Shown: piece by piece, positions 596 through 17,874 of the stretch
Numbering within the stretch: position 1 is the stretch's first letter
Layout of the letters: every line of letters starts with the position of its first letter
IMG/VR virus record: IMGVR_UViG_3300024520_000576
Span: 1-20,968 of that record
DNA: 20,968 nt
Reading direction: 5' to 3' (one strand)
Source: a virus
Position numbers and translations under genes: made by a program
Notes under the pieces: model-generated
What the model was told of the DNA's origin: nothing
What the model saw: only the letters and a program-made list of their open reading frames with translations
Database searches by the model: none

Positions 596-872
596 AAAAG
601 GAAACAAAGGGAAGCCGAAAGGAGCAGTTAACAAAGTAACTCAGAGCGCAAGGGAGCTATTCTTAGAGACTTTAGAAGGTCAGAGCGAACATATAGCAGA
701 AGCGTTTAATAAAGTGCGTGTAGAGTCGCCTAGTAAGTACTTAGATTTATTCGCAAAGTATGCACAATATTTCGTTCCTAAGAAGACAGAGAGTAGCGAC
801 AAGGTTACACACCAGTTTAGCGACTTTAATATAAAAGAAATCTTTAAAATTGAATCAGATACAGATAAGTAG
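582..872 (+). CDS. Probable terminase small subunit (DUF5681-like N-terminus)
   Basis: The N-terminus FEKGNKGKPKGAVNKVT matches the pattern GN-x-G-x-PKGA-x-NK seen in DUF5681-type proteins, which often sit directly before a large terminase and are annotated as small subunits. Small terminase subunits recognise phage DNA and hand it to the motor. The protein is 96 aa, with a helical middle and a short acidic tail. It overlaps the large subunit gene by 23 bases in another frame. The assignment rests on the N-terminal motif and position. No separate helix-turn-helix is evident, and some DUF5681 proteins have no demonstrated terminase role. Confidence 0.6.
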   Translation: MSKFEKGNKGKPKGAVNKVTQSARELFLETLEGQSEHIAEAFNKVRVESPSKYLDLFAKYAQYFVPKKTESSDKVTHQFSDFNIKEIFKIESDTDK

Positions 873-2058
873 TAAATATAATCTACTCGGTTCAGATAGT
901 AGATACTTTGTGATTACAGGAGGAAGGGGAAGCGGTAAATCGTATTCCCTTAACTCGTTTCTACTACTTCTTACTTACGAGCCTGGACACGTTATATTGT
1001 TTACACGTTATACACTTACCTCTGCGCACGTTTCTATCATTCCTGAGTTCATAGATAAGATTGAAACAGCAGGGTTGTTAGATGAGTTTAAAATTACTAA
1101 AGACGAAATAGTAAATCTTACTACTGGCTCGAAGATATTATTTCGAGGTATAAGAACAAGTCAAGGAACACAAACAGCAAACCTTAAATCGTTAGCGAAC
1201 GTTACTACATGGGTACTAGATGAAGCAGAAGAGTTAGTGGACGAAGATGTATTTGATAAGATTGATTTTTCTATTAGAGCAAAGGGAATACAAAACAGAG
1301 TGATACTTGTATTAAACCCAGCAACTAAAGAGCATTTCATTTATAAACGATTCTTTGAGCAACGAGGCGTACAAGATGGAAGTAATAAAGTAATCAAAGA
1401 TACAACTTACATACATACAACATACTTAGACAACTATAAACACTTGTCAGAATCATTCATACGTCAGGTAACAAGGATGAAAGAGAACAGCCCTACTAAA
1501 TACGAACACGTTATTTTAGGTGGTTGGCTAGACAAAGCAGAGGGAGTGGTGTTTACTAATTGGAGAATAGGAGAGTTTAACCCTGACAACTTACAAACGT
1601 CTTGCGGTATGGATTTTGGTTATAGCGTTGACCCTGACACATTGACCGAAGTAGCAATAGACAAGATAAAGAAAAAGATATACCTTAAACAACATATCTA
1701 TTCAAAAGGATTGCAACCAAGCGTACTTGCTCAAATGATACTTAGTAAGGTAGGAAAGAAATTAATCATTGCAGATTCAGCAGAGCCAAGATTGATAGAC
1801 GAACTTAAATTTGCTGGGTGTAATATCCAAAAAGTAAAGAAGGGAACTATTGAGAGTGGTATTACTATGATGCAGGATTTTGAGATAATAATAACAGAGG
1901 ATAGCACAGACATTGCTAAAGAGTTAAACAATTACGTTTACGCAGACAAGGGGAGTAAGTTATATGTTGATAGTTATAACCACGCTATTGACGGTGCAAG
2001 GTACAACATTATACACCACTTAGATAACCCTAACAAAGGTAAGTACTTCATATCATAA
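850..2058 (+). CDS. terL: Terminase large subunit (ATPase-nuclease)
   Basis: This is the DNA-packaging motor that pumps DNA through the portal and cuts the concatemer. At 402 aa it has the usual two domains. The ATPase domain has a Walker A motif GGRGSGKS (residues 24-31), a Walker B motif WVLDEAEE (121-128, catalytic E about 125) and a coupling-type motif LNPATKEHF (155-163). The nuclease domain has three acidic positions in RNase H-like contexts: D255 in GMDFG, D309 in IADS and D381 in HAIDGARYN. The start is TTG at 850, since no ATG lies between there and the Walker A motif, so the gene overlaps the small subunit gene by 23 bases. The sequence appears intact. Confidence 0.95.
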   Translation: MNQIQISSKYNLLGSDSRYFVITGGRGSGKSYSLNSFLLLLTYEPGHVILFTRYTLTSAHVSIIPEFIDKIETAGLLDEFKITKDEIVNLTTGSKILFRGIRTSQGTQTANLKSLANVTTWVLDEAEELVDEDVFDKIDFSIRAKGIQNRVILVLNPATKEHFIYKRFFEQRGVQDGSNKVIKDTTYIHTTYLDNYKHLSESFIRQVTRMKENSPTKYEHVILGGWLDKAEGVVFTNWRIGEFNPDNLQTSCGMDFGYSVDPDTLTEVAIDKIKKKIYLKQHIYSKGLQPSVLAQMILSKVGKKLIIADSAEPRLIDELKFAGCNIQKVKKGTIESGITMMQDFEIIITEDSTDIAKELNNYVYADKGSKLYVDSYNHAIDGARYNIIHHLDNPNKGKYFIS

Positions 2059-2060
2059 AA

Positions 2061-2088
2061 AAGCCACGCTAACTTAATAACGTGGCTT
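2061..2088 (-). terminator. Hairpin terminator facing left (end of minus-strand cluster 1)
   Basis: AAGCCACG (2061-2068) pairs with CGTGGCTT (2081-2088) across a 12-base loop. On the minus strand the stem is followed by TTTTTTAT, a good intrinsic-terminator tail. On the plus strand it is followed by AATTGG, which is poor. The site therefore best serves leftward transcripts from the 187-aa gene and would keep them out of terL. It may also weakly end the terL transcript. Confidence 0.65.
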
Positions 2089-2109
2089 AATTGGTTAGAA
2101 TCTTAACTA

Positions 2110-2184
2110 GTATAGTCTAACGAGACTGCTACACGGTTCACTGAGCCGAAGCTTTATTAGGAGAGGTACGAGCAACACTGCTTT
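2110..2184. other. Cluster of three short hairpins in non-coding DNA
   Basis: Between the terminator at 2061-2088 and the stop of the minus gene at 2190 lie three perfect short inverted repeats: AGTCT/AGACT with a 4-base loop (2114-2127), CGGTTC/GAGCCG with a 3-base loop (2134-2148), and AGCA/TGCT with a 4-base loop followed by TTTT on the plus strand (2171-2186). They could form the 3' untranslated part of the leftward transcript or a small RNA on either strand. No reading frame of note is present. It is not a canonical tRNA. Confidence 0.35.
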
Positions 2185-2189
2185 TTAAA

Positions 2190-2753
2190 TTATAATAATG
2201 GTTTAGCGATTTCTAGTAAGTCTATAAAGTTCTCAAAGAATAAGTCTCTTAGTTCTTCTGTTTTGAAGTGCATTACTCTTTGGTCTCCATCAAACCAGTC
2301 TTTGACTATTTCGGTTTCATACACAACGATAACGTATTTGTAAGTTGTATTACTCCAATCAGCTTTCCAATCTTCGTTATACCTGTCTCTTAACTGTAAT
2401 AACTGAGTGAGTGCGAGTGATGCCTCTGCTAATTCTTCAGTTGGGAATACGTTTTTATTTTCGTTAAAAATAGCGCATCTATTAGTGGTTTTTATTTCTG
2501 AGGACGTGCTTACATAACCACCTTTAATTTCTACCAACTCTTCCCATGTCTTAGGTAACGGCTTCTCTCCCAACTCAGGGTAATTACTCAGTGCAAACGC
2601 TCTTACGCTTTCGTCTTCTGACTTGTACATTAATTCTGCTACTTCTTTTGTTAACTTCATGTTTGTTTTATTTATTCTTTTATTTACTGCTTCTGCTATT
2701 TCTTCTACTGTGACATGTCTTCTGCCTTGGTAATAATTCTCGTAGTAATTCAT
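2190..2753 (-). CDS. 187-aa conserved hypothetical protein of Bacteroidetes phages
   Basis: I recognise the general pattern (a TWEEL-x-E-x-KGGYVS segment, then a TEELAEASLALTQLLQLRDRYN helix, then a C-terminal ELRDLFFENFIDLLEIAKPLL) as a family common in Bacteroidetes prophages and mobile elements, with no function known to me. The protein is soluble and mostly helical. The start ATG at 2753 is preceded by an A/T-rich spacer and a leader of about 110 bases containing strong hairpins, with its own promoter at 2872-2901. It points against terL and is monocistronic, which makes it look like a cargo gene set within the late region. It appears intact. Confidence 0.75.
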   Translation of the reverse strand: MNYYENYYQGRRHVTVEEIAEAVNKRINKTNMKLTKEVAELMYKSEDESVRAFALSNYPELGEKPLPKTWEELVEIKGGYVSTSSEIKTTNRCAIFNENKNVFPTEELAEASLALTQLLQLRDRYNEDWKADWSNTTYKYVIVVYETEIVKDWFDGDQRVMHFKTEELRDLFFENFIDLLEIAKPLL

Positions 2754-2771
2754 AACTCTATTTTTAAATTA

Positions 2772-2802
2772 AACGAGAGCTACAACTTTTGCAACCCTCG
2801 TT
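2772..2802 (-). promoter_or_regulatory. Strong 14-bp hairpin in the 5' leader of the 187-aa gene
   Basis: The arms 2772-2785 and 2789-2802 pair over 14 positions with a 3-base loop when read as minus-strand RNA. Three of the pairs (2778/2796, 2780/2794, 2782/2792) are G-U wobbles in minus RNA but A-C mismatches in plus RNA, so the structure fits a leftward transcript. It ends about 18 bases before the start codon. Possible roles are translation control, mRNA stability or protein binding. Confidence 0.5.
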
Positions 2803-2829
2803 AAGCGTTGGCACACTGACAATAACTCA

Positions 2830-2868
2830 AAACCTGATTTATAAATTAAGTTTATGTCATTATTGACA
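2830..2868 (-). promoter_or_regulatory. Two further inverted repeats near the transcription start
   Basis: An 11-position stem (2830-2840 with 2843-2853, one mismatch in minus RNA) and a TGTCA-TTAT-TGACA palindrome (2855-2868) lie between the promoter and the 14-bp hairpin. The palindrome covers the expected start point about 7 bases after the -7 box, which is a typical place for an operator. A further TGACAATAA half-site is seen at 2818-2826. The function is inferred from position only. Confidence 0.35.
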
Positions 2869-2871
2869 CTG

Positions 2872-2901
2872 CTAAGTTAATGCTTTATTTTTGATTAGCA
2901 A
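2872..2901 (-). promoter_or_regulatory. Host-type promoter for the 187-aa gene
   Basis: Read leftward, GTTTG ends with TTG at 2901-2899, followed by exactly 19 bases and the box TAACTTAG (2879-2872). This fits the Bacteroidetes consensus TTG-N19-TAnnTTTG with one change. The predicted start near 2866 leaves a leader of about 110 bases. The same spacing is found at three other minus-strand promoters in this window. Confidence 0.65.
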
Positions 2902-2903
2902 AC

Positions 2904-3065
2904 TTATTTGTATTTAATTTTAAATTGTTTAAATATTTCTACCTTACATGCTTCCTCTAATCCCCAGAAGTCCATTTGAAACCATACGAACACGCCTTTG
3001 TAGTTATACATGAAGTCAGGGCTTGTAGATATTGCCCATTCTTCAAACTCTTTACGGTCTATCAT
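2904..3065 (-). CDS. 53-aa hypothetical protein
   Basis: The minus-strand frame runs from ATG 3065 to TAA 2904-2906, beginning two bases after the stop of the 95-aa gene, so the two form an operon. The sequence starts MIDRKEFEEWAISTSPDFMY and is rich in aromatic residues (a VWFQMDFWG stretch), with a single Cys. The C-terminus is basic (KQFKIKYK). I do not recognise it. Its stop abuts the promoter of the next minus gene. Confidence 0.6.
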   Translation of the reverse strand: MIDRKEFEEWAISTSPDFMYNYKGVFVWFQMDFWGLEEACKVEIFKQFKIKYK

Positions 3066-3067
3066 GG

Positions 3068-3355
3068 CTATTTGTTAAACTTTTCGTTGTAATAGTCATC
3101 AACTTTAATGTCTCGCTTTATATCGACATCTAAATATCCCTCGTAAGGATACTCACCGTTAAAGCCCTCACCGCTTGCTTTAAACCCGTCTAAGTACGCA
3201 TTTACAACATCTTCTTTGGTGTGTATGTGCTTAGTGTTCTCTATTAGGTGTATAACGTTTTTAATCATTGATACGTCAGCAGGAGTTAGCTTATTCTCTT
3301 TCCTGTCGATACTTCCTCTCAATACTGTCTTTAGTATTTCTACTTCTACTTTCAT
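3068..3355 (-). CDS. 95-aa hypothetical phage protein
   Basis: This is the first gene of a two-gene leftward operon with a consensus promoter 20 bases upstream. The protein is acidic and helical at the N-terminus. It has a conserved-looking segment VVNAYLDGFKASGEGFNGEY, a pattern I associate with small phage proteins of unknown function, and ends in a charged tail. Start ATG 3355 is the only ATG near the promoter. No catalytic motif is seen. Confidence 0.65.
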   Translation of the reverse strand: MKVEVEILKTVLRGSIDRKENKLTPADVSMIKNVIHLIENTKHIHTKEDVVNAYLDGFKASGEGFNGEYPYEGYLDVDIKRDIKVDDYYNEKFNK

Positions 3356-3375
3356 AATTTATCGTTTTGTTTCTA

Positions 3376-3405
3376 CGAATATACGAATAAAAACTAAATA
3401 AGCAA
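3376..3405 (-). promoter_or_regulatory. Host-type promoter for the 95-aa and 53-aa genes
   Basis: Reading leftward, TTTTTTG (TTG at 3405-3403) is followed by 19 bases and then TATATTCG (3383-3376). The box matches TAnnTTnG and the spacing is identical to that of the other minus promoters. The region is shared with the rightward start signal at 3411-3426, making it a compact divergent control region. Confidence 0.65.
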
Positions 3406-3410
3406 AAAAT

Positions 3411-3426
3411 AGTTTATTATTATATG
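3411..3426 (+). promoter_or_regulatory. Rightward start motif, diverged copy, for the tail module
   Basis: AGTTTATTATTATATG runs into the ATG at 3424. It resembles the AGTTAATTAGTATG motif found at 12395, 14388 and 17861, and it is preceded by the same CAAAAAATAG stretch as the 17861 copy. No TTG box lies at the standard distance, so it is not an ordinary host promoter. It could be a phage-specific promoter or a translation signal. Confidence 0.4.
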
Positions 3427-4098
3427 AAAGCACAGATTACAATACCTGACAATTTAAACGAGTTAAGCATTGGACAGTATCAAAAGTTCCTAACTGTTAC
3501 CGATGGGTTAGAGGGTGAGTTCTTAAACCAAAGAACAGTAGAAGTATTTACACAAACGCCATTTAATAGAGTTCTTACAATGTCACACAAAGACGTTAAA
3601 GACATTGCTAACTCAATGATTGACTTACTTAGTGGTCAAGTAGAGTTCCAACATAGGTTTAAAATCAAAGATGTTGAGTTTGGATTCATGCCGGACATGG
3701 AGAACATGACAAGTGCAGAGTTCGCAGACCTTAGTAGATACATTGGAGACTGGCAAACGATGCATAGAGCAATGGCTGTTATGTTTAGACCAATAGTAGA
3801 ACAACGTAAAGACGCTTACGAGATAGCAGAGTATAAAGGTACTAAAGACTTTGGAGACTTAATGAAGTTCGCACCTTTAGGAATAGCAATGGGAGCTATG
3901 GTTTTTTTTTACAATTTAGTGAACGACTTGTTGAACTTTACCCAACTTTATACACTGGAGGAAGCGGCGAAGGAGATTATAGCAGAGCAGCACAATTCGG
4001 TAAGAAGTGGGGCTTTTACCAAAACTTCTATACACTCGCTCAAGGAGATATTAGACGATTTAGTGAAGTTGAACGTTTACCAATTCATGAGTGTTTAA
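3424..4098 (+). CDS. Tail assembly chaperone, zero-frame product (gpG-like)
   Basis: The 224-aa product begins MKAQITIPDNLNELSIGQYQ. It has a central block (FGFMPDMENMTSAEFADLSRYIGDWQTMHRAMAVMFRPIV) with a pattern I associate with flavobacterial phage tail genes. Position upstream of the tape measure in the tail module, together with a frameshift site, argues for a tail assembly chaperone that coats the tape measure before the tube forms. The slip site falls at residues 160-162 (VFF). Beyond it the zero frame continues for 62 residues, ending in a helical SLKEILDDLVKLN segment. The family is not named from sequence alone, so the role is inferred from synteny and the frameshift. Confidence 0.75.
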   Translation: MKAQITIPDNLNELSIGQYQKFLTVTDGLEGEFLNQRTVEVFTQTPFNRVLTMSHKDVKDIANSMIDLLSGQVEFQHRFKIKDVEFGFMPDMENMTSAEFADLSRYIGDWQTMHRAMAVMFRPIVEQRKDAYEIAEYKGTKDFGDLMKFAPLGIAMGAMVFFYNLVNDLLNFTQLYTLEEAAKEIIAEQHNSVRSGAFTKTSIHSLKEILDDLVKLNVYQFMSV

Positions 4099-4166
4099 CC
4101 TATCTCAGTTTTGAAAAGGAACGTATAGAATTAGAACGTAAAGAAATAGAAAGTAAATTTAAGTAG
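3424..4166 (+). CDS. Tail assembly chaperone, -1 frameshift product (gpGT-like)
   Basis: A -1 slip on the T run at 3902-3910 joins residues 1-162 of the zero frame to 85 residues read from 3909 to the TAG at 4164-4166, giving about 247 aa. The -1 frame is open from 3846 and contains no ATG, GTG or TTG, so it cannot be started independently. Its product includes FGKKWGFYQNFYTLAQGDI and ends in a charged helix with LTYLSFEKERIELERKEIES. This looks like a genuine conserved C-terminal domain. The next gene starts at the base after this TAG, as expected if the extension is translated. A single-base sequencing error in the T run is the main alternative. Confidence 0.7.
3902..3910 (+). promoter_or_regulatory. 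Slippery site for -1 programmed frameshifting
   Basis: Nine consecutive T follow a G. In the zero frame they read GTT TTT TTT TAC, so the heptamer T TTT TTT (3903-3909) allows both tRNAs to re-pair after a one-base slip back. The downstream -1 frame encodes protein-like sequence to 4166 with no start codon of its own. I did not identify a clear downstream pseudoknot by eye. Confidence 0.7.
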
Positions 4167-5762
4167 ATGCAAGTTTATTACAATATATTAGAAATGATAC
4201 GCGTACAGCTTTTACAAGATGTAAACGTAAACACGGTAACCACAGGCGACATATTTGACGTTGATTTAGAGAAGCAAACAATCTTTCCTTTAAGTCATGT
4301 AATGGTTAACCAAGCCACAAAAAGAAAGAATGTCTATACTTTAAGTATTAGCGTTTTGTTAATGGATATTGTAGACTCAGTAAGTCACGAAGCAATTGAT
4401 AATTTCAGAGGTAACGATAACGAACAAGATGTATTCAATACACAGTTAAGCGTTGGTGCTAGGTTGGTAGAAATGATTGAACGTGGAGATATTAGAGACG
4501 ACAATTTCGAGTTAGTAGGCGACCCTAGTTTTGAGCCATTTACAGAACGATTTGAAAACTCTTTAGCAGGTTGGTCTTTAACTTTTGAAGTGAACGTACC
4601 TAATACTATGACCGTATGTGATGCGCCTTTAATCCCTTCTGATTGTGCAGCAGCTTCTTATACTATAACAGATGAAGATGGAACGACATTATACAGCGGA
4701 GATATTGCAAGTGGTTTAAGTTTAACGCAGACAATAACAAACTCAGATGTACAAAACTCAGACGGAAGTTATAACGCAGGTGTAGCTGCTCAGGGTTCTT
4801 TAACTTTGCCTGATGAAACTATATTAGTAACCAATACTAATTTAGATATAATTGCACAAGATGTAAACAGACCAAGTGTAAAAGATGGAACGATAGAAGT
4901 GCCTGATATAACGTTAACCGATTCAGATGGAACAGTATTATCTAAAGCGGCTGGTATTGATTTAGTATGCACGCCTTCAGCAGATGCAACGGTTGAAAAC
5001 AGCGACTTATCATACACAAATACGGTTGCAAGTGGTGGCACTTTAGTTTTGCCTGACGTAACAAATACAGATTCAGACGGTAGTTCAGTAGTTACACCAG
5101 CCCAAACGCCTTTTGTTTGTACGCCAGCAGTACCACCAACTCCGCAATTGTACCAAGCTGCAAAAGTAATACAGACAGGTCAAACGGTAAGTTATACGAC
5201 AGGCGACGACATAACAAGAGGTCGTGGTGTAGATTTTTTCACGCTTGACTATGTTAATGAGTGGGGGCATTCTTTTAGATTCTGCGGTTCAAATGGTGGT
5301 TATTCAGATGGCACAAGTTATTTTGATGTCTCAGGAGTTGCCACGACTAGAGCTTTAGCGTTTCCTAACTTAATAGTGTTTGATTTTAGCGCAAGGAATG
5401 TAGATTCTGTTTTAAGCTATTACATCGGTGACGTTGCAAGTTACGGAAATCAAGCAACGCAAATAGTCAAACATTTAACCTCTACTTTTGGAGGGTTGAC
5501 GGGGTGGAGATTATGGAACGTGTCAGAGTTGTTTAATGTTTTAAATATTGGGGTTTATCCTATTATAACACACTACATGAGTTACCCACCTTTTGACTTT
5601 GGGTCAGCAAACAGATATTTTTGGACGGCTAGTTCATATAGTGCAACGAATGGATTTAGAACAGAATTAAGAGGTATCACGCCAATAGTAGGAAATGGCA
5701 ACACATCTACGTATTTGGGTGTTTGGGTTAGATACACAACGTTGACAGAATTAGGATTATAA
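4167..5762 (+). CDS. Tail protein fused to beta-repeat and DUF1566-like display domain
   Basis: This 531-aa protein is modular. Residues 1 to about 150 (starting MQVYYNILEMIRVQLLQDVN) look like a tail-terminator or tail-completion domain, judging by position and pattern. Residues about 160-325 hold degenerate beta-rich repeats with GSYNAGVAAQGSLTLPDET and DLSYTNTVASGGTLVLPD as related units. Residues about 340-531 resemble DUF1566, a C-type-lectin-like fold, shown by TGWRLWNVSELFNVL, then FWTASSYSATNGFRTE and GVWVRY near the end. The likely role is a structural tail base that carries a surface-binding domain. It starts directly after the chaperone TAG, and its TAA overlaps the next ATG by one base. 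The DUF1566 call is fairly firm; the N-terminal call is tentative. Confidence 0.7.
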   Translation: MQVYYNILEMIRVQLLQDVNVNTVTTGDIFDVDLEKQTIFPLSHVMVNQATKRKNVYTLSISVLLMDIVDSVSHEAIDNFRGNDNEQDVFNTQLSVGARLVEMIERGDIRDDNFELVGDPSFEPFTERFENSLAGWSLTFEVNVPNTMTVCDAPLIPSDCAAASYTITDEDGTTLYSGDIASGLSLTQTITNSDVQNSDGSYNAGVAAQGSLTLPDETILVTNTNLDIIAQDVNRPSVKDGTIEVPDITLTDSDGTVLSKAAGIDLVCTPSADATVENSDLSYTNTVASGGTLVLPDVTNTDSDGSSVVTPAQTPFVCTPAVPPTPQLYQAAKVIQTGQTVSYTTGDDITRGRGVDFFTLDYVNEWGHSFRFCGSNGGYSDGTSYFDVSGVATTRALAFPNLIVFDFSARNVDSVLSYYIGDVASYGNQATQIVKHLTSTFGGLTGWRLWNVSELFNVLNIGVYPIITHYMSYPPFDFGSANRYFWTASSYSATNGFRTELRGITPIVGNGNTSTYLGVWVRYTTLTELGL

Positions 5763-9729: not shown

Positions 9730-9872
9730 TAGAACAGATTTTAGAATTACTAGCGAGTGATGAGTTTTTAGGTAAAAGCAAAAACATAGACATTGCAAAA
9801 GGGAAGTATAAGATTCCTAAAACAATTAAAGAAGTTACAAAACAAATTAAACGTGAGGACGCATGGCAATAG
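9726..9872 (+). CDS. 48-aa hypothetical protein before the tape measure
   Basis: The gene starts in an ATGA overlap with the tail-tip gene and overlaps the tape measure start by 10 bases (TAG 9870-9872, ATG 9863), so it is coupled on both sides. It has an acidic helical N-terminus (MIEQILELLASDEFLG) and a basic helical C-terminus (KTIKEVTKQIKRED). There are no cysteines or membrane segments. Its exact position suggests a small tail assembly factor, but that is inference. Confidence 0.6.
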   Translation: MIEQILELLASDEFLGKSKNIDIAKGKYKIPKTIKEVTKQIKREDAWQ

Positions 9873-11878
9873 TTAAACAAGTTGATATTCAAGTAGACAC
9901 TAAACAAGCTGTTAAAGGTCTTGCAGATTTAGGTGGTAGCTTTGAGGACGTTTACGGAGAGATACAACCGTTAAGCACTGTTATAGGTGAGCTAGAAGAT
10001 AGGCTTTACCAAATGGCAGCAGCAGGCGAACAAGGCTCTGAGGAGTTTAAGTTACTGTCTAGGCAAGTCGGAGATTACAAAAAGGTAATTATAGACACTG
10101 ATTTGTCGGTTGATTCTATGGCAACTACAACGGCTCAAAAACTAGGCGGTGCGCTTTCGGGTGTAACTGCTGGTTTCGAGTTGGGAGCAGGTGCAATGGG
10201 TGTAATGGGTGTAGAAAGTGCTTTAGTAGAAGAACAACTATTAAAAGTTCAGTCTGCTATGGCTATCGCACAAGGAGTGCAAGGAATCAAAGAAGCAATA
10301 CCAAGTTTTAAAGCGTTAACGGCTGGCATAATGAAAACTACGGTTGCTCAGAAAGCGTTAACGATTGCACAAGGTATCGGAGCAGTAGCAACAGAGGTTC
10401 TAAATACGGTGATGAATAGTAACCCTCTTCTTTTATTAATAACTGCGGTTGCTGGTCTTGCCTACGCTTATAGAGAATACACAAATGTGATTGGAAACGT
10501 TGAAGAAATTAACAACGAGTTTAACAAATCGCTAGAAAGACAAAACAACCTACTAGACAAAACTCTAAAAAAGGTAAGAGAATCAAACGAGCATAAATTA
10601 AAGTTAATGGAGCTTGAAGGTGCGACTGAGGAAGAGTTACACGACCAGCGAATAAAGATGTTAAAGATTGAAGAGTTAGGACGTAAGGCACAACTTAAAA
10701 TACTAGCAGATGAAATTAAAGTAAAGTCGCATAATTTACAAATTGCATTAGCAGCAGACCAACAAGAAGTAGCAGACGCTATTAAAGAAGAATTAGACGC
10801 AGTAGCAGAAAAGTTTGAAACGCTTGAAGGAATGAATCAAGATTACAACCGTAACGTTGAACTTGAAGATTTACAACATAAACAAAAACTAGAACAGCAA
10901 CGAAAAGAGGACGTAGCAAATTATAAACAATATCTAGCAGATAGGAAAGCAGCAGACATTGAAGCGGAGGATATAAGGTTACAACTGTTAGCAGAAGGAG
11001 AGTTCAAAGATATTGAGATACTAAACGCACAGAACGAAAGACGTAAACAAGCGTTACTAGCAGACACGAGCAAGACGCAAGAAGAGAAAAACGAACTGTT
11101 AAAGTTATACGACAGACTAAGAGAGCAAGAAGAGCAAAAAGTACGTGCTAAGTATTTAGAAGATGAAAAAATACACCAAGAAGCAGTAGTAGCTCAAAAG
11201 ATGGAAGCACCTGATTTTGTAGACCCTGAACAAGCACCCGAAGTAATAGCAGAGCAAGTAAAAGGGCAGAGAAGACTTGAAATACAAAAGGCGTTTAATG
11301 ATGAATCTGAAAAGATGCACGCTATTACAGAGTCTAAAAAATGGAAACAAACAGAGCAAGGTTTAGCTGGTGCGGCTTCTGCTTTAAATTCTCTACAAGC
11401 TTTAAGCGATGCTGTAACAGACAACCAACTAGCCAAAGCAGAAGGTAACGAAGAAGAACAAGAAAAGATTAGAAAGAAAGCGTTTGAACGTAACAAAAAA
11501 TTGCAGATTGCAATGGCAGTAGTTCAGGGTATTCAGGGAGTTATGGCAGCGTTTACGGCTGGTTCAAGTATGGGGCCGGCCGGGGTTATAATGGGTCCTT
11601 TAATGGCTGCGCTTGCTGCGGTTACTGCTGGGGTAAACATAGCCAAGATTAAAAACAGTTCATATCAGGGTGGAGGCTCTGCTGGCGGTGCAAGTGTTCC
11701 AAGTGCAGGACAAGTTAGAACTCCCTCGTTTAATATCGTTGGTAATAGTTCAGAAAATCAGTTAGCTACGAGTCTAGGAGAGCAAGGTAACGCACCTATT
11801 GAGACGTATGTAGTTAGTTCTAAAGTAACAAGCGCACAGAGTTTAGATAGAAACAAGGTAGAAACAGCGAGCTTGTAA
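9863..11878 (+). CDS. Tape measure protein
   Basis: At 671 aa this is the length ruler of the tail. The N-terminus (VDIQVDTKQAVKGLADL) matches the usual tape measure opening. Hydrophobic segments lie at about residues 95-118 and 186-202. Residues 220 to about 520 are a long charged coiled coil rich in E, K and Q. A Gly/Ala-rich hydrophobic stretch, AMAVVQGIQGVMAAFTAG through LMAALAAVTAGVNIAKIK, spans about 545-600. At about 1.5 Å per residue the length suggests a tail near 100 nm. A perfect 10-bp hairpin follows the stop. The call rests on size, composition and synteny. Confidence 0.88.
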   Translation: MAIVKQVDIQVDTKQAVKGLADLGGSFEDVYGEIQPLSTVIGELEDRLYQMAAAGEQGSEEFKLLSRQVGDYKKVIIDTDLSVDSMATTTAQKLGGALSGVTAGFELGAGAMGVMGVESALVEEQLLKVQSAMAIAQGVQGIKEAIPSFKALTAGIMKTTVAQKALTIAQGIGAVATEVLNTVMNSNPLLLLITAVAGLAYAYREYTNVIGNVEEINNEFNKSLERQNNLLDKTLKKVRESNEHKLKLMELEGATEEELHDQRIKMLKIEELGRKAQLKILADEIKVKSHNLQIALAADQQEVADAIKEELDAVAEKFETLEGMNQDYNRNVELEDLQHKQKLEQQRKEDVANYKQYLADRKAADIEAEDIRLQLLAEGEFKDIEILNAQNERRKQALLADTSKTQEEKNELLKLYDRLREQEEQKVRAKYLEDEKIHQEAVVAQKMEAPDFVDPEQAPEVIAEQVKGQRRLEIQKAFNDESEKMHAITESKKWKQTEQGLAGAASALNSLQALSDAVTDNQLAKAEGNEEEQEKIRKKAFERNKKLQIAMAVVQGIQGVMAAFTAGSSMGPAGVIMGPLMAALAAVTAGVNIAKIKNSSYQGGGSAGGASVPSAGQVRTPSFNIVGNSSENQLATSLGEQGNAPIETYVVSSKVTSAQSLDRNKVETASL

Positions 11879-17654: not shown

Positions 17655-17813
17655 CTAAGAGCCACAACCTATACAATCAAAATGAGAATCAGTCGGTTTC
17701 GTTCCGTTCATCTTCATTTCGAGTTCGTGTATCTCTTGCTTAATATCCATGTCAACCATCATGTCTCCTGTTAACTTTTGCTTAAGTTCTTCTAATTTCT
17801 CTAAATCTGTCAT
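17655..17813 (-). CDS. 52-aa small protein with C-terminal CxxC
   Basis: This is the first gene of minus cluster 3, from ATG 17813 to TAG 17655-17657. It has a helical acidic N-terminus (MTDLEKLEELKQKLTGDMMV), a Met-rich middle, and ends HFDCIGCGS. The CIGC pair next to His suggests metal or thiol chemistry at the C-terminus, but this is inference. The consensus promoter lies 13 bases upstream of the start codon. Bacteroidetes phages carry many such small CxxC proteins without known function. Confidence 0.65.
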   Translation of the reverse strand: MTDLEKLEELKQKLTGDMMVDMDIKQEIHELEMKMNGTKPTDSHFDCIGCGS

Positions 17814-17825
17814 ATTGTTTTTCTG

Positions 17826-17855
17826 CTAATATACAAATAAAAACATAAACAACAA
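17826..17855 (-). promoter_or_regulatory. Host-type promoter for minus cluster 3
   Basis: TTG (17855-17853), 19 bases, then TATATTAG (17833-17826) on the minus strand. The region closely resembles the divergent region at 3376-3426: AATATAC-R-AATAAAAAC is shared, as is CAAAAAATAGTT. It drives the four small genes leftward from 17813. Confidence 0.7.
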
Positions 17856-17860
17856 AAAAT

Positions 17861-17874
17861 AGTTAATTAGTATG
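17861..17874 (+). promoter_or_regulatory. Rightward start motif at the portal module
   Basis: AGTTAATTAGTATG ends in the ATG at 17872. It is identical over 13 bases to the copy before the scaffold at 14388 and one base different from the copy at 12395. It is preceded by CAAAAAAT. The TTAATTAG core differs by one base from the TAnnTTnG box, but no upstream TTG box is present. Confidence 0.5.

Follow-up and report, generated by a model that had tools for sequence, protein, structure and literature searches.

Organisation of the G/T locus

The window analysed here is a stretch of 20,968 nucleotides of viral DNA with a GC content of 36%, and its only run of eight or more T is a T9 run that lies within a gene here termed G. 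The features of the locus that are used below, all on the plus strand, are the following:

850..2058, plus strand, large terminase gene (PF04466), the conserved upstream neighbour
3424..4098, plus strand, G gene with a zero-frame product of 224 aa (160-aa G domain and 64-aa tail Z)
3902-3910, plus strand, T9 run, the putative slippage site joining zero-frame G to -1-frame T
3903-3909, plus strand, in-phase heptamer T TTT TTT inside the T9 run
3903..4166, plus strand, T domain in the -1 frame, 87 aa followed by TAG at 4164-4166, predicted to be reached only via a frameshift
3904..4098, plus strand, zero-frame tail Z overlapping T, apparently kept open by selection and less constrained than T
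3917..3919, plus strand, TAG in the third (+1) frame just 3' of the run
4167..5762, plus strand, next gene of the conserved module, its ATG directly after the T stop
9863..11878, plus strand, probable tape measure protein gene, four genes downstream of G/GT

Read from the ATG at 3424, the zero frame crosses the run as GTT TTT TTT TAC (3901-3912) and stays open for 64 further codons, ending at 4098. In the -1 frame no stop occurs between 3846 and the TAG at 4164-4166, and 3846-4163 contains no ATG, GTG or TTG; the only other potential starts are ATT and ATA codons, at 4050, 4083, 4125 and 4146. The initial annotation had proposed a programmed -1 ribosomal slip on the nine-T run of a tail assembly chaperone gene in a Bacteroidetes phage. 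On re-reading of the window, its T9 run, zero-frame codons and -1 ORF coordinates were all exact, and our recount agreed with it on the missing start codons, as did the ATG at 4167 with its statement that the next gene begins right after the T stop. A T9 run was present in 67% of first-order Markov copies of the window, so that the run by itself proves nothing and the case rests on comparison.

Evidence for a frameshift that joins G to T

Scans of IMG/VR returned hundreds of loci homologous to G/T. All 386 loci in which T was found carried a run of 8-10 T at the junction (T9 in 373, in the same register; T10 in nine; T8 in four, from one lineage), and wherever G was also present, T lay in the -1 frame. 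After later scans the homologous loci with T in the -1 frame of G numbered 514, from viral contigs and from bacterial genomes, the latter including a Flavobacterium sp. contig and other Bacteroidota. The T homology reached the T run unbroken in all relatives. At one locus (L479) the upstream frame looked wrong, and the frame break was found farther up in G, with normal frames beside the run. In the Nonlabens phages P12024L and P12024S, identified by tblastn, both halves abut in a -1 relation with T9 at the join and are annotated as separate hypothetical proteins. P12024L_41 (L003 4001-4252), annotated from an internal ATG, corresponds by homology to the T domain and joins P12024L_40 at T9. Divergent T and G queries searched by tblastn against named phages returned Nonlabens P12024L/S or nothing. 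Among predicted structures, several viral proteins of about 230-270 aa matched the models of both G and T; judged from these models, the two domains form one protein elsewhere.

Comparison of the window with the related locus L005 showed differences of 25/13/59 at zero-frame codon positions 1/2/3 upstream of the run and of 14/5/34 at T-frame codon positions 1/2/3 downstream of it, while in the overlap the zero-frame positions 1/2/3 differed 3/25/9 times. The substitutions thus change codon phase at T9, which marks T as the main coding frame past the run, and the pattern indicates that T is translated and under purifying selection. Z diverges faster than T (identity 58% vs 87%), and in 95% of 64 relatives it runs for at least 50 codons without a stop, compared with 21% after the synonymous codons of T had been permuted. 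Because Z is kept open beyond the permuted expectation, both C-termini, Z and T, seem to be used. The TAG in the +1 frame was found at the same place in 64/64 reference relatives; it resembles a shield against wrong slips, but it is dictated by the amino acids of the other two frames and is absent in the Bacteroidota chromosomal group (see below), and was therefore not taken as evidence.

Taken across the relatives, the conserved junction indicates that a programmed frameshift yields a G-T fusion in Bacteroidota phages and prophages. The initial proposal of a programmed -1 shift at T9 is thereby borne out, by the 514 loci and by 30 distant chromosomal copies, and homologues of the -1 peptide proved to be many, including separately annotated ORFs and distant fused G-T proteins. 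Its assignment to a Bacteroidetes phage likewise stands, with homologues in the Nonlabens phages and the Flavobacterium sp. contig: the window virus is a phage of aquatic Bacteroidota.

Run length is conserved across codon registers

In a non-redundant set of 200 regions (nucleotide identity <90%), 181 had T9, 18 T10 and one T8, so that 199/200 carried T9 or T10. T8 occurred solely in the lineage L188/L190 (3001-3264), which reads GGT TTT TTT TAC and comes from two metagenomes. When alignment columns were permuted (5000 trials, 200 regions), a mean of 13.1 regions and a minimum of 9 fell below nine T; the observed number was 1.

The run was found in several codon registers, including GTT TTT TTT TAC, TTT TTT TTT ATC, GGT TTT TTT TTG and GCT TTT TTT TTG. 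Where the first T was lost, a T was usually gained 3' of the run (GGT TTT TTT TTG), and where a T was lost at the 3' end, the run extended farther 5' (TTT TTT TTT ATC). Within a clade encoding V-F-F-F-Y, GTA TTT TTT TTT TAT and GTT TTT TTT TTC TAT differ by synonymous changes only, and both have T10. A FastTree tree required 15 changes of register or length, one of which falls below nine. End losses that were compensated numbered about five per side on the best tree and three per side on supported branches; a sign test on independent pairs of end losses was not significant, the events being too few and the counts not fully independent. A single inserted codon could also account for the -4/10 register, and amino-acid constraint in either frame could explain most single T positions.

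Of the stretches near the junction that do not vary at all among 64 relatives (<90% identity), T9 and a TTTA close by are the longest. A C at position 3909 would be synonymous in both frames (TTT to TTC; TTA to CTA) and would leave T TTT TTC, and this position is T in 64/64 reference relatives; in the G region of the 64 relatives, Phe is encoded by TTC in 23% of cases and Leu by CTN in 42%. These comparisons indicate that what selection keeps at the junction is a run of at least nine T.

Copies of the G/T gene in Bacteroidota chromosomes

When Bacteroidota genomes were searched with a profile, T turned up in 28/101 genomes of one family, at about 25% identity to the T of the window. The run was exactly T9 in 30/30 chromosomal loci, in a codon register other than the window's, flanked by C, G or A on its 5' side and by G or A on its 3' side; in all 30, T occupied the -1 frame, and upstream the G frame was open for about 160 codons. 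At one further locus (L564) the run is T10 and G-T forms a single 253-aa frame, while a paralogue in the same genome (L565) has T9; L564 is an isolated instance and may reflect an assembly error.

In this family the surroundings of the T9 G/T gene are often made up of ordinary chromosomal genes (L568 and L570-L575, from genomes G1117, G1133, G1144, G1140, G1119 and G1200), and lipoprotein neighbours of the G/T gene are common to different species. A terminase was found in 32/101 genomes, nearly the same genomes as T and mostly as a single copy, and an MCP-type gene (phrog_11320) was present in one copy in each of three genomes tested. In several genomes the terminase, MCP-type, tape-measure and amidase genes are separated by tens to hundreds of kb or sit on other contigs. 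These dispersed phage-type genes look like a vertically kept set resembling a gene transfer agent.

RNA polymerase or ribosome as the slipping machine

The long T run is conserved as a run, as expected of transcriptional slippage, and the heptamer T TTT TTT stands in phase, as expected of a ribosomal -1 site; the heptamer does not discriminate, since any T9 holds exactly one of them in phase. Three lines of evidence favour programmed transcriptional slippage at T9, which we regard as the probable mechanism: the nine T are kept irrespective of codon register, as slippage of RNA polymerase predicts; T TTT TTC is nearly absent at a doubly synonymous wobble position; and the run length matches known thresholds for RNA polymerase. 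The RNA-DNA hybrid measures 9-10 bp, and bacterial RNA polymerase slips efficiently in vivo at nine A or T (PMC5009743). For the E. coli enzyme, T runs are more slippery than A runs; T7/T8 gave 5-10% insertion, and on fewer than seven T no slippage was detected (PMC6260861), so that the T8 lineage may be able to slip too.

Under transcriptional slippage, a faithful U9 transcript would be translated into G-Z. On some transcripts the host RNA polymerase would slip on T9 and add one U, and an ordinary ribosome would read such a U10 transcript from G on into T, giving the frameshifted product G-T, with the 160-aa G domain common to both proteins. U8 and U11 transcripts would lead into the third frame and, in the window's clade, to a stop within about three codons. 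The length of the run would then set a fixed ratio of G-Z to G-T.

The main alternative is programmed -1 ribosomal frameshifting, in which the P- and A-site tRNA-Phe would slip on U_UUU_UUU without a stimulatory structure. We consider this unlikely, although several observations speak for it: U_UUU_UUU or U_UUU_UUC is in phase in every relative, the T8 lineage retains only the heptamer, U-to-U re-pairing in the A site could, on reasoning, also favour U over C at 3909, and the G/GT shifts of lambda-type phage tail genes are ribosomal (PMC5009743). Against it, the heptamer needs only seven T, yet runs shorter than nine are almost absent, the T's outside the heptamer trade places between the ends of the run, and U_UUU_UUU shifts poorly in E. 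coli, where it is much less slippery than A_AAA_AAG (PMC5009743). Nor was a conserved RNA structure found upstream or downstream of the run (consensus energy -1.31 kcal/mol, 11 relatives), and z-scores of single-sequence RNA folds near the run (0.26, 1.32 and -1.16) supported none. A downstream stem-loop or pseudoknot is frequent, not obligatory, at ribosomal -1 sites. Of the ribosomal slip first proposed for this gene, the frameshift itself stands; as to the slipping machine, the evidence leans to RNA polymerase rather than the ribosome. The accompanying remark that a T9 run is an unusual site can be taken up in the same sense: the run length is conserved independently of register, which points more to transcriptional slippage.

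That both machines act, RNA polymerase slipping at T9 and ribosomes at the heptamer within it, is very improbable; one sequence could serve both, but nine T would not be required for slipping by ribosomes on their own.

Production of T as a separate protein by internal initiation is more improbable still. A T-frame start codon occurs before T codon 30 in 17/111 non-redundant relatives, and annotators gave Nonlabens P12024L_41 an internal ATG, but the window has no start in the T frame, the T homology is unbroken up to the run in all relatives and fused G-T proteins occur; this reading was rejected on the missing start codons, the conservation and the codon-position pattern. A sequencing error or a decaying gene is ruled out by conservation and the codon-position pattern, for although homopolymers are error-prone and a T9 is not rare in AT-rich DNA, the same run recurs across hundreds of independent assemblies, isolate phage genomes and bacterial genomes, and T is under purifying selection.

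Function and gene neighbourhood

The gene order is conserved: large terminase, G/GT and then the genes corresponding to those at 4167, 5762, 6302 and 7345 of the window. In 107 relatives the T stop overlaps the ATG of the next gene as ATGA. In the window, 2059-3423 carries minus-strand ORFs (2190-2753 and 3068-3355) between terminase and G, and these are probably an insertion, since the terminase adjoins G in relatives. A repeat of about 80 bp, 78% identical, occurs at 3343-3423 and 17789-17873, preceding the G gene and the gene at 17872, and is possibly a shared promoter element. The first 146 aa of the 4167-5762 product match phrog_30964 (a short conserved phage protein); the other approximately 380 residues form an extension that ends in a weak Lcl_C match and may be a fused binding domain.

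G belongs to phrog_32199 of PHROGs, a family of unassigned function, and neither G nor T could be placed in a named family by searches of Pfam, PHROGs and PDB. Alignment of G/T to lambda gpG/gpT by hhalign revealed no relation (probability 0.1), and a fold search against PDB gave no match. The best named fold match was a predicted 'tail assembly chaperone' of Caudovirales sp. ctCpR1, a weak one (E 0.13, probability 0.91). The predicted fold of gp10 of Flavobacterium phage 6H (L389 10048-10927, minus strand) resembles G; an unannotated out-of-frame ORF follows it, there is no T9, and the layout would need more than one shift. By analogy with the lambda system, we consider it fairly probable that G-Z and G-T are tail assembly chaperones. 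In this respect the initial annotation was right as to organisation (the place of the gene in a conserved tail module, and the existence of remote fused G-T proteins) and was not upheld as to sequence family and gene position, as gpG/gpT did not align and the tape measure gene lies four genes away; G/GT is not in the canonical position between the major tail protein and tape measure genes.

Comparison with known systems

Frameshifting in tail chaperone genes is a textbook case of ribosomal recoding. A conserved translational frameshift is described for lambda G/GT and its kin (Xu, Hendrix and Duda 2004, as cited in PMC5009743). Like lambda G/G-T, the locus would encode two products with a common N-terminal domain, the longer one made via a -1 shift near the end of G; the gene lies in the tail module, the next gene begins at the T stop, and a C-terminal -1-frame domain appears to be fused to G by a programmed shift, as in lambda-type genes. 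Unlike lambda G/G-T, it has T9 in place of a mixed heptamer, a zero-frame tail of about 64 aa, no detectable sequence relation to gpG/gpT and no adjacent tape measure gene, and its shift is probably transcriptional.

Programmed transcriptional slippage at nine-base A or T runs is known from Thermus dnaX, Shigella mxiE/spa13 and Citrobacter and Yersinia tssM (PMC5009743, PMC4256274). These genes share with G/T a homopolymer of about nine bases at the frame junction, short and long products that both seem to be used and no visible ribosomal stimulators; they differ in being cellular genes in which slippage was measured, whereas here slippage is inferred from sequence evolution for a gene of a phage structural module. 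In potyviruses, P3N-PIPO is an overlapping frame reached by polymerase slippage at GAAAAAA. It resembles G/T as a viral overlapping frame with polymerase slippage at a conserved homopolymer and differs from it in its RNA-dependent RNA polymerase, its short A run and its occurrence in plant RNA viruses. In the open-access literature searched, transcriptional slippage is described for dnaX, for insertion sequences and for genes of type III and type VI secretion, while the slips described for phage tail genes are ribosomal; we found no description there of a T9 site in phage tail genes.

Implications

On balance, the comparisons suggest that a large group of Bacteroidota phages and the dispersed chromosomal phage-type genes set the ratio of two tail-module proteins by slippage of the host RNA polymerase, with T9 conserved more strictly than the protein. 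If this is true, slippage at T9 would be the transcriptional counterpart of the ribosomal G/GT switch, the same two-product logic having been reached by a different machine, RNA polymerase, and frameshift finders that use only ribosomal heptamers would misjudge such sites. Together, T9 and the T domain provide a marker for naming a hidden gene that annotators miss, and the T9 kept in the chromosomal copies points to a possible gene-transfer-agent-like element in Bacteroidota.
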